Shown here: in pieces, positions 8,335-11,796 of the stretch
How positions within the stretch are numbered: position 1 is the stretch's first letter
How the letters are laid out: the number at the start of each line of letters is the position of its first letter
From: Acidimicrobium ferrooxidans
GTDB lineage: Bacteria; Actinomycetota; Geothermincolia; Fen-727; Anoxymicrobiaceae
Assembly (NCBI GenBank): GCA_020723485.1
Contig: DYIU01000001.1
Location: forward strand, 941,779 to 1,005,778
Direction: 5' to 3'
DNA: 64,000 nucleotides
Notes under the pieces: model-generated
The model's input: only the letters and a program-made list of their open reading frames with translations
Database searches by the model: none
Told to the model about the DNA's origin: nothing
Made by a program: the position numbers and the translations under genes

Positions 8335-9549
8335 ATGGCCTACAGATTGACTTTCCCGGGGCAGGAAAAGGAGCTCGGGCGGTCGTTCGAACGGGAGCTC
8401 GCCGATGGTATCTGGATGTTGGAGGGCTATGTCAGCGACTACTTCCTTCTCAAGCCGGCCTCCTCCAACACCTATATCCTGAGGGATAAGGACACGCTGC
8501 TCATTGTGGACCCCGGTCTATACCCGTTCTACCGCAAGAGGATCATCGATATCGTCCGTCGGTTCAGGAGTAACGGGGTGAAAAGGGTCGTCCTCACGGT
8601 GACCCAGGGGCACTTCGACCACGTCGGGAACAATGACGTGATAATGGAGACCGGTGTCGACGATTGGAGCTTCATACTCCCCGAGCCGGAGCTCAAGGTC
8701 ATCGACATCCTCAACGACTTCATGGCGGACATCGATAACCTGGCGGGGCTGTACGACGTCTACTCGATGTTCGACGGGAGGATCACCACCGCGGTCAAGG
8801 CGGCTTCGAAGGTCTCACCCCGCCTGGCGCGGTCTCTGCTCAAGGCGCACTTCGCTGCTCTCTTCGGTGGCCTCGGCACGATGAGAGAGAACGCCTCGGT
8901 CCTGACGCTCGATGCGCGCGAGAAGCGCACTTTCGGGTCGGTCGAGCTGCAGGGCTGGGAATTCGGGCGGTTCTTCCTCATCCATGACGCCTCGCACAGC
9001 CCGGGACACATATCCATCTACGACCCGGAGACCAGGTTCCTGATGAGCGGGGACGTCACCGTCGAGATAAACCCGGCGTTCTACTACAGCTCCTTGGACC
9101 GCTGCATAGAGATGGCGGGCAAGTACCGGGTCATGGCCGAGGAGGGATTTGTCGAAATCGCCACCGACTCGCACCGAAGCCCCACGTTCCTGCCGGCCAG
9201 GTTCGAGCGCTGGGGGATCGACCCGCTCGATGAGGTCCAGCTCACAGACGCGGCGCGAGGCGCGAAGCAGTGTGAGGCTTTCTTCACCGTCTATGAGAAG
9301 TTGTTCTCGCAGCTCAAGGACGCTGCGCTCGACGCACACCTGAAGCTGGGCGAAGCCACCATCCCGCAGATAGTCGAGGGGATGCAGTCGGTGGACAACC
9401 CCGCGATGAGGTTCAAGAAGGCAATGAAGTTCGAGCGGTTTCCCTCGAGGATGGACGTGCTGGTAGCGACAGTCCTCCGGGAGGCGGGGGCTCGGAAAAC
9501 GCCGGGCGCCGGAGGAGCGGTGTTCACCCCCATGGAGGCCGGCGGATGA
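8335..9549 (+). CDS. Metallo-beta-lactamase-fold hydrolase with altered metal motif
   Basis: This 404-residue protein has an MBL fold in its first two thirds. Motif 1 is LIVDPG (57-62). Motif 2 is TQGHFDHVGNND, where the usual first metal-binding His is Gln91 while His93, Asp95 and His96 remain. HDASHSPGHISIY and LMSGDV supply the later metal ligands. Loss of one ligand suggests a changed metal site or substrate. A C-terminal helical region (about 300-370) resembles the winged-helix tail seen in many MBL hydrolases. ATG 8335 is used; an upstream GTG in the same frame adds 14 unconserved residues. The stop overlaps the next gene by four bases, so it is coupled to the selenoprotein. Confidence 0.82.
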   Translation: MAYRLTFPGQEKELGRSFERELADGIWMLEGYVSDYFLLKPASSNTYILRDKDTLLIVDPGLYPFYRKRIIDIVRRFRSNGVKRVVLTVTQGHFDHVGNNDVIMETGVDDWSFILPEPELKVIDILNDFMADIDNLAGLYDVYSMFDGRITTAVKAASKVSPRLARSLLKAHFAALFGGLGTMRENASVLTLDAREKRTFGSVELQGWEFGRFFLIHDASHSPGHISIYDPETRFLMSGDVTVEINPAFYYSSLDRCIEMAGKYRVMAEEGFVEIATDSHRSPTFLPARFERWGIDPLDEVQLTDAARGAKQCEAFFTVYEKLFSQLKDAALDAHLKLGEATIPQIVEGMQSVDNPAMRFKKAMKFERFPSRMDVLVATVLREAGARKTPGAGGAVFTPMEAGG

Positions 9550-10370
9550 GCCGGTTGTTCGAGAAGGTCGATGTCTGGAAGAGGTTCGGCCGCCTGACTA
9601 ACTCGAAGGTGGGGCTCGCTTTCCAGGACAGGTTCCGCCCGACCGTCGAGCGGATGATGCTGCCGATGGCTGAGTGTCAGGATGGCGATATCCCGCTGGC
9701 GCGGCTGGAGAAACCGCTCGATGAGGCAAGGATTGCACTGGTCACGACGACGGGGGTCTACGTCGAAGGCCAGCAGCCGTTCGATACCGCGGCCCAGCTG
9801 GGAGATCCCACTTTCCGGGTGATACCGTCGGACGTCGACGCCTCGAGGCTGAGGATCGCGCACACGCACTACGCCCATGAGCGCGCACTCGAGGACATCA
9901 ACGTCATCTTCCCGGTTGACAGGCTGCGGGCGCTCGCCTGGGAAGGGGCGATCGGTTCGCTCGCTCCGAGCTTCTACAGCTATGGTTTCGACCTGCATGT
10001 CGAAGAGCTGGTCGGCCCGGACGGCTCAGCCGGGGAGGTGGCCGAGCGGATGGTCGAGGAGGGCGTAGACGCCGCGCTGTTCACGCCCGGGTGACCGATG
10101 TGCAACAGGGCCGTGTGCCTCCTGTCGAGTGTCGTCGAGTCTTTCGGCGTCGCCACCGTGGGCCTCTCTCTCAACCGAGAGGTCTCCCAGAAGGTGGGAG
10201 CGCCCCGTACGCTGTACCTGAGGTACCCATACGGCGCGCCACTCGGCGAGCCGGGCAACGACAGCCAGCAGCGAGCCATCCTGAATGACATGTTCGAGGC
10301 CCTCTACTCGGTCGAGGAGCCCGGGACCATCATCGACCTGCCCTACAGGTGGCGCCGCGACAGCTTCTAG
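9546..10370 (+). CDS. Selenoprotein of the glycine/betaine/sarcosine/D-proline reductase B (GrdB/PrdB) family, in-frame TGA
   Basis: Translation of one continuous frame gives 274 residues if TGA 10092-10094 is read as selenocysteine (residue 183). The codons on both sides are in the same frame, and the protein similarity continues across the TGA: TPG-U-PMC-NRAVCLL before a VATVGLSL strand. In the family this position is a Cys or Sec in a (C/U)PxC redox motif just before the NRxVxLL helix. Such subunits reduce C-N bonds of amino acids and derivatives using the Sec selenol; many homologues have unknown substrates. No GrdA or GrdC/D subunit is nearby. A candidate SECIS hairpin follows the TGA. 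The ATG overlaps the metallo-hydrolase stop (ATGA). Read conventionally, the gene would split in two at 10094. Confidence 0.85.
10103..10127 (+). other. Candidate bacterial SECIS element of the GrdB-like gene
   Basis: Starting 11 bases after the UGA, ACAG (10105-10108) pairs with CUGU (10122-10125), and GGC (10109-10111) pairs with GCC (10117-10119). The apical loop is CGUGU (10112-10116), with U and C bulged on the 3' side. A small loop with G/U about 18-22 bases downstream, plus a bulged U, fits the bacterial SelB-binding layout. Manual folding only. Confidence 0.5.
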
Positions 10371-10375
10371 CTGCA

Positions 10376-10460
10376 CAGCGGGGTCAGGTCACTTTGTTGC
10401 ATTTTCTTAGTGGCAGCCGAGCATCCAGTTGGAATGCAACAAAGTGACCTGACCCCGCTG
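10376..10460. repeat. Inverted repeat element, GGGGTCAGGTCACTTTG family
   Basis: Arms 10376-10403 and 10433-10460 are perfect 28-base reverse complements around a 29-base centre. The element fills almost the whole space between two convergent genes (stops at 10370 and 10467). It could act as a two-way transcription terminator. The same core occurs at 36556, 44290 and 53521. Confidence 0.9.
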
Positions 10461-10466
10461 TTGCGC

Positions 10467-10955
10467 TCAGGGTTGGAGGCTGTCGAGGACGGCGAAGACA
10501 TCCTCGTCTGGAGGGAAGTCGGTCTGGATGCGGCCGATGTAGATGTACCTGATTATCCCTTCGGCGTCCAGCACGAACTCGGCGGGTCGGGAGATGTTGA
10601 CCGATTCGAAGTTGACCCGCACGTAGACCCCGTAAGCCTTCACCACTGTCCGCCGGACGTCGGACAGAAGGGGGAACGGGTATGAGTGCTTCTCGAGGAA
10701 CTCGCTGATCCGGGGCACGCTCTCAGCCATTATGACCGCGACGCGGGCCCCCCGCTTCTCGAACTCGCTATAGATCTCGCGTACATGACCCATGTACTGC
10801 CGGCAGTGCGGTCACCAGGTGCCCCTGCCGAAGATGAGGTACAGCGGTTGACCCAGCAGGTCGCCCAGGCTCACACTCTCACCGGTGGAGGCGTCTGTAA
10901 GAGTGAAATCAGGCGCCCTGTCGCCTATGCTCAGTACCCTGTTCTTTATCGGCAA
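10467..10955 (-). CDS. AhpC/TSA-type thioredoxin-fold selenoprotein (UPHC active site), in-frame TGA
   Basis: The frame runs from TTG 10955 to the stop at 10467, 162 residues with one internal TGA (complement of 10812-10814) at residue 48. Residues before the TGA (IGDRAPDFTLTD, then GQPLYLIFGRGTW) are the typical start of an AhpC/TSA redoxin; residues after it (PHCRQYMGHVREIYSEF) continue the same fold. The TGA therefore takes the place of the peroxidatic or attacking Cys in the TWCPHCR motif, giving TW-U-PHC with resolving Cys51. The likely role is thiol-dependent reduction of peroxide or another oxidant in the cytoplasm. TTG follows GGGGGTGAAG and an in-frame stop lies just before it, so no earlier start exists. 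A conventional call would start at ATG 10793 and lose the active site. Confidence 0.85.
10781..10797 (-). other. Candidate bacterial SECIS element of the redoxin gene
   Basis: On the minus strand, GUACAU (10797-10792) and AUGUAC (10786-10781) form a perfect 6-bp stem with loop GGGUC at 21-25 bases after the UGA. The well-studied fdhF SECIS of E. coli has a GGUCU loop at about the same distance, so both structure and loop sequence fit SelB recognition. Confidence 0.65.
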
Positions 10956-11060: not shown

Positions 11061-11076
11061 GTAAGCGTTCACTTAC
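11061..11076 (+). promoter_or_regulatory. TetR operator candidate 1 (autoregulation)
   Basis: GTAAGCGTTCACTTAC matches the reverse complement of the site at 11781-11796 at 14 of 16 bases. It sits directly after the -10 box of the regulator gene. Two near-identical copies flanking one regulator strongly suggest its binding site. Confidence 0.65.
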
Positions 11077-11112: not shown

Positions 11113-11721
11113 ATGACCATCGTCGAGAAGGCTCGCGACCGCTACGAGCACTACGAAGAACAGCGAAGGCGGATAATCCAGGCGGCCATCGACGTGTTCG
11201 GCGAGCACAATTACGACGTCGGCACGATGGCGATGATAGCGAAGGAAGCCGGCATCTCCGAGGCGATGCTCTACAAGCACTTCAGCAGCAAGAAGGAGCT
11301 GTTCATGAAGTGCTTCGAGGAGATAGTCGGCGACCTTATGTCACGATACGCGCAGTGCTACAAGAGCAATACCGATGACCCTCTCAAGTACCTTGAAGAC
11401 AGCGCGGTAACTTACCTGCGCTATATCAAGGAAAGCTCGACGGGCTCGAAGTTCCTCGTCCACCTCTTCAGCAGCACGTACGACCCGGAGCTCAAGGAAC
11501 CGCTGGTCGGGTTCTTCAAGGCCAGCCTCGAGACAGTGCAGAAAGCGCTCGACCTGGCAAAGAGCAAGGGCCAGTTGAGTAAGAAAGCGGACACGGAGCT
11601 TCTTGCCTGGGACTACGTCGGACATTACTACAGCCTTATGCTCGCCGCGGAGATCGGAATCGAGCCGATGATGGACGAGAAGCGGGTCCGCGCCTTCGTG
11701 CGGACCATATTCCAGCGTTAG
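11113..11721 (+). CDS. TetR family regulator of the acyl-CoA operon
   Basis: This 202-residue regulator has a TetR helix-turn-helix at about 18-62 (MAMIAKEAGISEAMLYKHFSSKKELF) and a long helical effector domain. Its promoter carries a 16-base operator-like site, and a near-copy lies between its stop codon and the nine-gene acyl-CoA operon that starts at 11842. By analogy with TetR-type controllers of fatty-acid and sterol breakdown (FadR, PsrA, KstR types), it probably represses the operon until an acyl-CoA ligand appears. That is inference. The start is ATG 11113 with AGGAA eight bases upstream. Confidence 0.9.
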   Translation: MTIVEKARDRYEHYEEQRRRIIQAAIDVFGEHNYDVGTMAMIAKEAGISEAMLYKHFSSKKELFMKCFEEIVGDLMSRYAQCYKSNTDDPLKYLEDSAVTYLRYIKESSTGSKFLVHLFSSTYDPELKEPLVGFFKASLETVQKALDLAKSKGQLSKKADTELLAWDYVGHYYSLMLAAEIGIEPMMDEKRVRAFVRTIFQR

Positions 11722-11780: not shown

Positions 11781-11796
11781 GTAAGTGACCGCTCAC
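11781..11796 (-). promoter_or_regulatory. TetR operator candidate 2 (operon control)
   Basis: GTAAGTGACCGCTCAC is, in reverse, nearly identical to the site at 11061-11076. It lies 45 bases before the amidohydrolase start and next to an AT-rich stretch (CATAATTATG) that could hold the -10 box. Confidence 0.6.

Follow-up and report, generated by a model that had tools for sequence, protein, structure and literature searches.

A Prx-like redoxin gene of Candidatus Geothermincolia with a probable active-site selenocysteine, and a relative carrying cysteine in its place

The redoxin gene at 10467-10955 of the 64,000-nucleotide stretch of DNA analysed here (the window) is very probably a genuine selenoprotein gene, since the evidence as a whole is best explained by a Prx-like redoxin in which selenocysteine 48 (Sec48) acts as the attacking selenolate. 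Comparison at the level of sequence establishes the Sec site and the frame read through it, the SECIS hairpin, the decoding machinery and the predicted fold. The most unusual part is a relative that appears to have reverted to Cys in a genome where the selenium machinery was not found.

Reading frame and relatives of the redoxin gene

The features discussed below are as follows.
10467-10955, minus strand: redoxin gene with selenocysteine, coding for 162 aa from a TTG start to a TGA stop, with Pfam AhpC-TSA across the UGA
10953-10955, minus strand: TTG start codon, aligned with ATG/GTG in relatives
10812-10814, minus strand: in-frame UGA, U48, first position of UxxC; UGA in 22 of 23 class genes and TGT in the other
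10803-10805, minus strand: Cys51, the presumed resolving residue, in the column of the peroxidatic Cys of TxxC peroxiredoxins
10781-10797, minus strand: predicted SECIS hairpin, 7-bp stem GUACAUG/CAUGUAC, all seven pairs present in 22 of 22 UGA sequences
9546-10370, plus strand: neighbouring PrdB/GrdB-like selenoprotein gene, TPG-U-PMC, UGA at 10092-10094; TIGR04483 150.9 bits, below the cut-off of 300

Standard ORF calling yielded only 10467-10793, a 108-residue fragment beginning at ATG 10793. Reading through the single internal TGA (10814-10812) gave a 162-residue frame with U48 and C51 in the motif FGRGTW-U-PHCRQYM, which ended at the TGA stop codon 10469-10467 on the minus strand, a strand not given in the preliminary description. 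The Pfam AhpC-TSA domain extended over residues 10-138 in one piece spanning the UGA (2.9e-31), and the whole domain was matched (PF00578, 108.4 bits versus a cut-off of 26, model positions 1-124 of 124), in agreement with the earlier claim that UGA read-through restores a full redoxin with Sec at 48 and Cys at 51. An in-frame TGA (10961-10959) one codon 5' of the TTG likewise bore out the stop placed earlier just before the start. The TTG start was considered sound because relatives begin in the corresponding alignment column with ATG or GTG (M/VPKENK or MSRESK); a GGGGG 6 nt 5' of it is a possible, weak ribosome-binding site. Because ORF calling cuts the gene to the 108-residue fragment, annotation has likely overlooked or mislabelled the redoxin throughout the class.

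The window's class was represented by 31 genomes, the relatives being MAGs of Candidatus Geothermincolia. In these, another 22 redoxin copies aligned over the active site, 21 with UGA and one with TGT (Cys). With the window gene included, the residue-48 codon specified Sec in 22 genes and Cys in one, the copies being orthologues or paralogues with 40-75% protein identity to the window's redoxin. As in other bacterial selenoproteins, the in-frame UGA thus stands where homologues have UGA (22) or a redox Cys (1), and the Cys orthologue that was to be looked for at the Sec column was found with the motif TWCPTC (L112, the same gene as L027). The Cys51 column was nearly invariant (22 of 24 aligned rows). 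Two members keep Sec and have lost the second Cys: L120 reads UPNW, with Trp in its place and no Cys anywhere in the protein, and L021 reads UPNA, with Ala. Three of these redoxin genes were also present in named records, those of Actinomycetota fen_727, Candidatus Solincola sediminis and Candidatus Geothermincola secundus; Geothermincola is a member of the class Candidatus Geothermincolia, Actinomycetota. In a literature search of limited scope, no paper was found that connects Geothermincolia with selenocysteine.

Several further sequences were observed alongside these copies. A fragment at G008:C15:22934-23110, which matches redoxin residues 102-160 only and is separated by 2 kb from the complete copy with UPNA, is the remains of a tandem duplicate. 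Distant relatives from Myxococcales (L032, UPYC), Desulfobacteraceae (L063, UPYA) and Acidobacteriales (L028, UPNC) have UGA at the same column and were weakly placed beside the class clade in the redoxin tree. A separate redoxin branch from other Actinomycetota (L175, L177, L180), with YRGDW-U-PYC among YRGDW-C-PYC relatives, is another Cys/Sec exchange. Class members also contain a second UGA-containing peroxiredoxin family (L121, L124-L128; FYPGDFTFV-U-PTE), with Sec at the peroxidatic position.

The genetic context analysis of 20 redoxin loci showed that only the redoxin and its overlapping ORFs recur widely and, with no conserved gene neighbour, neither a partner nor a substrate is indicated. 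The PrdB/GrdB-like gene has UGA-containing relatives with 61-65% identity in four genomes (G020, G022, G029 and G030). Another copy of it lies at C5:569473-570219. The preliminary description had taken the redoxin to be independent of this gene, each supporting the other. The PrdB/GrdB-like gene proved not to be a conserved neighbour: it is present in few class members and does not recur beside the redoxin, and a link between the two was rejected. Between these two convergent selenoprotein genes lies a perfect 29-bp inverted repeat with a 29-nt spacer (10375-10461), whose arm had 92 and 81 genome matches (up to 2 mismatches), many of them inverted pairs about 50 bp apart. By its sequence it belongs to a REP- or MITE-like palindrome family and possibly acts as a terminator. 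On the other side of the redoxin, two near-identical operator-like palindromes, GTAAGTGAACGCTTAC (11061-11076) and GTAAGTGACCGCTCAC (11781-11796), flank a TetR-like gene (11113-11721), the former in the divergent gap toward the redoxin and the latter ahead of 11833.

Selenocysteine machinery and the hairpin after the UGA

The genome of the window contains selD, selA, selB and a tRNA-Sec with the anticodon TCA, clustered at C5:592965-598104. The earlier proposal, under which a genome lacking such machinery (selB included) would speak against the selenoprotein, was thereby answered in favour of the gene. The selD gene carries a UGA at its own active site, and the formate dehydrogenase FdhA contains Sec as well (CARL-U-HAP). 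Among the class genomes, selA scored over its cut-off in all 19 that have a UGA redoxin, and none of the four without selA (G001, G009, G012 and G014) has one. G014, the genome with the Cys redoxin, had neither selA nor selD over cut-off, and its FdhA has Cys (CARL-C-HAP). Real loss of Sec decoding in G014 is likely because it has two formate-dehydrogenase-type genes without UGA, the absence of the sel genes alone being weak evidence in a genome that is 82% complete.

The hairpin had been described as a 6-bp stem with GGGUC 21-25 bases after the UGA. Its geometry was reproduced: when the last pair of the 7-bp stem opens, GGGUC (10791-10787) forms a 5-nt loop (GUACAU / GGGUC / AUGUAC) at that distance, with 20 nt between the UGA and the loop. 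The weight given to the single sequence did not hold up, as the folding energy of the window hairpin was no better than that of shuffles (z 0.27) and a perfect stem of at least 6 bp arose by chance in about 19% of synonymous recodings of the same peptide. It is the comparative evidence, rather than single-sequence folding, that makes the predicted SECIS convincing. In the related genomes, where conservation of the hairpin was to be looked for, all seven pairs (GUAYRUG/CAYRUAC) formed in the 22 UGA genes, with 100% of cells paired. Two pairs changed on both sides, from U-A to C-G in four sequences and from A-U to G-C in two, giving six double-change cells. None of 500 shuffles reached the hairpin's paired percentage, double-change cells or covariation score. 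Controls in which the hairpin was slid had 0-73% paired cells; the +2 control had a covariation of 0.167 versus 0.139 for the hairpin, but with 73% paired and no double change. The covariation is clean but shallow, because five of the seven pairs never vary and overlap codons of conserved residues, and the double changes could represent few events.

Published bSECIS rules specify a stem of 4-16 bp, a loop of 3-9 nt with G in its first two positions, a distance of 16-37 nt to the UGA and an MFE of at most -7.5 (PMC13188914). The window hairpin conformed to this model with the loop GGGUC and an MFE of -10.0, and the loop pattern N1-G-[G/U]-N-N2 was present in all 22 sequences. In the Cys gene the corresponding stretch, GTATATGGCCCATCTGC, has lost its continuous pairing, while retaining part of the sequence of the Sec members (GTATATGG..CAT). 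Taken over two varying pairs and one Cys gene, the pattern argues that the hairpin is kept by selection and is lost when Cys replaces Sec. With Rfam at a relaxed threshold, the palindrome 10375-10461 had only chance matches of microRNA- or sRNA-like type, none of which reached its gathering score.

Active-site chemistry, the cysteine member and competing readings

The AlphaFold2 model (pLDDT 94) showed a redoxin fold in which helix 49-60 directly follows U48, and its best PDB fold matches were Bcp/PrxQ, AhpE and ResA, including a CPHC variant of ResA. In the alignment with TxxC peroxiredoxins, U48 falls in the column of the Thr and C51 in the peroxidatic one. In the mechanism we propose, SelB and tRNA-Sec, together with the downstream hairpin, would insert selenocysteine at UGA 10814-10812, and the product would be a Prx-like thiol/disulfide redoxin, small and apparently cytosolic. 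Placed where the first long helix begins, Sec48 would attack a peroxide or a disulfide as a selenolate. Cys51 would then join Sec48 in a selenenylsulfide, and this Sec48-Cys51 bond would be reduced by a donor of the thioredoxin type. The bond, the donor and the substrate are parts of the scheme that we infer, and sequence data do not distinguish a peroxide from a disulfide as the substrate. Because L120 and L021 have lost the second Cys and kept Sec, Sec48 is probably the essential nucleophile in all members, with Cys51 as the resolving residue in most; for the same reason, a disulfide-type UxxC cycle cannot hold for every member.

These two members also lend some weight to a one-Sec peroxidase, in which Sec48 reduces hydroperoxides, an external thiol recycles it directly and Cys51 is an accessory. 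Sec has been retained although it is the second Cys that shares a column with the peroxidatic residue of TxxC peroxiredoxins, and the one-Cys AhpE was among the top fold matches. Conservation of Cys51 in 22 of 24 rows indicates, on the other side, that this residue matters in most members, and we regard the one-Sec peroxidase as rather unlikely. The members lacking the second Cys make the sufficiency of Sec alone testable.

A phylogenetic tree of 52 redoxins placed the class genes in a 23-row clade (98/88). The Cys gene of G014 was nested inside the Sec clade, within a 10-row clade (96/98) and a 13-row clade (100/98), and a grouping of the 22 Sec genes without it was rejected (p-AU 0.0044). 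A tighter AU test, with the Cys gene just outside a 12-gene subclade, did not reach significance (p 0.114), and the branch to which the reversion is assigned is therefore tentative. The simplest reading of the tree is a Sec-to-Cys reversion in the G014 redoxin. Gene transfer may also have been involved, since G013, the nearest genome relative of G014, carries a different redoxin branch. An ancestral Cys gene in G014, with Sec gained later one or more times by the other redoxins, would follow the usual bacterial direction of Cys-to-Sec change (PMC1794560). It is nevertheless improbable in view of the nesting on the 96/98 and 100/98 branches, the rejected grouping of the 22 Sec rows, and the part of the Sec-type sequence (GTATATGG..CAT) still present in the broken hairpin.

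Sec-to-Cys replacement has been reported as a rare event in bacteria, confined for the most part to FdhA and SelD (PMC1794560, PMC13188914), which is why the apparent reversion in the redoxin is a useful case. It offers a natural experiment, with 22 Sec genes and a covarying SECIS on one side and, on the other, one Cys gene with a broken SECIS in a genome where Sec machinery was undetected. Tentatively, and at somewhat less than even probability, the class genes may form a redoxin subfamily of their own, dominated by Sec, where the chemistry is done by Sec and not by a Cys pair, with Cys appearing only after Sec decoding is lost. If true, this would document a Sec-to-Cys reversion outside FdhA and SelD and provide a natural test of what Sec buys an enzyme.

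Two further readings deny the selenocysteine itself. The frame is open under any meaning of UGA, and the codon might be read as another residue such as Trp, through a reassigned code or near-cognate suppression. This is very improbable, as TGA ends 9 of the 23 long window genes checked and the redoxin itself, the relative that lacks the UGA has Cys in this column, and a complete Sec machinery accompanies UGA codons in SelD and FdhA. A pseudogene, in which the UGA would be a nonsense mutation and the 108-residue ORF from ATG 10793 the sole product, if any, agrees with the 10467-10793 call of standard ORF finding, but it is refuted by the comparative data (a UGA codon shared in position by 22 genes of one class, selection upstream of the UGA, a covarying hairpin) and has a negligible probability, the short ORF also being without the first strands and the active site. 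Homologues starting at ATG 10793, which had been named as evidence against the selenoprotein, were not seen among the class relatives compared; residues 1-47 were conserved, and dN/dS before the UGA was like that after it, well below 1 in nearly all comparisons.

Relation to known selenocysteine redoxins

The selenoprotein reading places the window redoxin near several described families, although no NCBIfam model reached its own cut-off. The Sec peroxiredoxin PrxU (NF040737, TxxU) shares the redoxin fold, but the window protein scored 37.5 bits against a cut-off of 270, and its Sec lies at the Thr position of TxxC instead of the peroxidatic position. The window protein is therefore not a peroxiredoxin proper (TxxC/TxxU): U48 occupies the Thr column, and the C51 that stands in the peroxidatic column is not shared by all members. 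The SelL-related redox protein (NF040769), also a Sec redoxin with a Prx-like fold, gave 58.1 bits, below its cut-off of 120; the SelL motif is UxxU, in contrast to UxxC in the window redoxin. ResA/StoA/TlpA provided the best NCBIfam profile (ResA NF002854, 66.8 bits, below the cut-off of 170) and the best PDB sequence match. The ResA variant 3c71 has the motif WCPHC, in which the window redoxin has Sec for the first Cys, and no membrane anchor or signal sequence was seen in the window protein in comparison with ResA/StoA/TlpA.

In kind, the window redoxin corresponds to the 'Prx-like thiol:disulfide oxidoreductase' (PF00578, UxxC/UxxU, representative WP_010940744.1; PMC13188914 Table 1, PMC9312934). 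A 'Prx-like' UXXC selenoprotein has also been listed (PMC1088965), as has 'Prx-like 1' (PMC2398784). The window redoxin shares with the oxidoreductase PF00578, a UxxC motif with Sec first (UPHC) and the SECIS type; two class members differ in lacking the second Cys. The initial assignment as an AhpC/TSA selenocysteine redoxin is thus retained and refined to a Prx-like protein with a thioredoxin-type UxxC, not a TxxU peroxiredoxin, of a kind already published (PMC13188914, PMC1088965). In ocean data, 'Prx-like 1' comprised 225 Sec and 2,740 Cys sequences (PMC2398784), whereas Sec was found in 22 of 23 genes of the present clade from uncultured Actinomycetota. By domain, motif and SECIS type, the window redoxin adds an Actinomycetota lineage to this known kind of selenoprotein.
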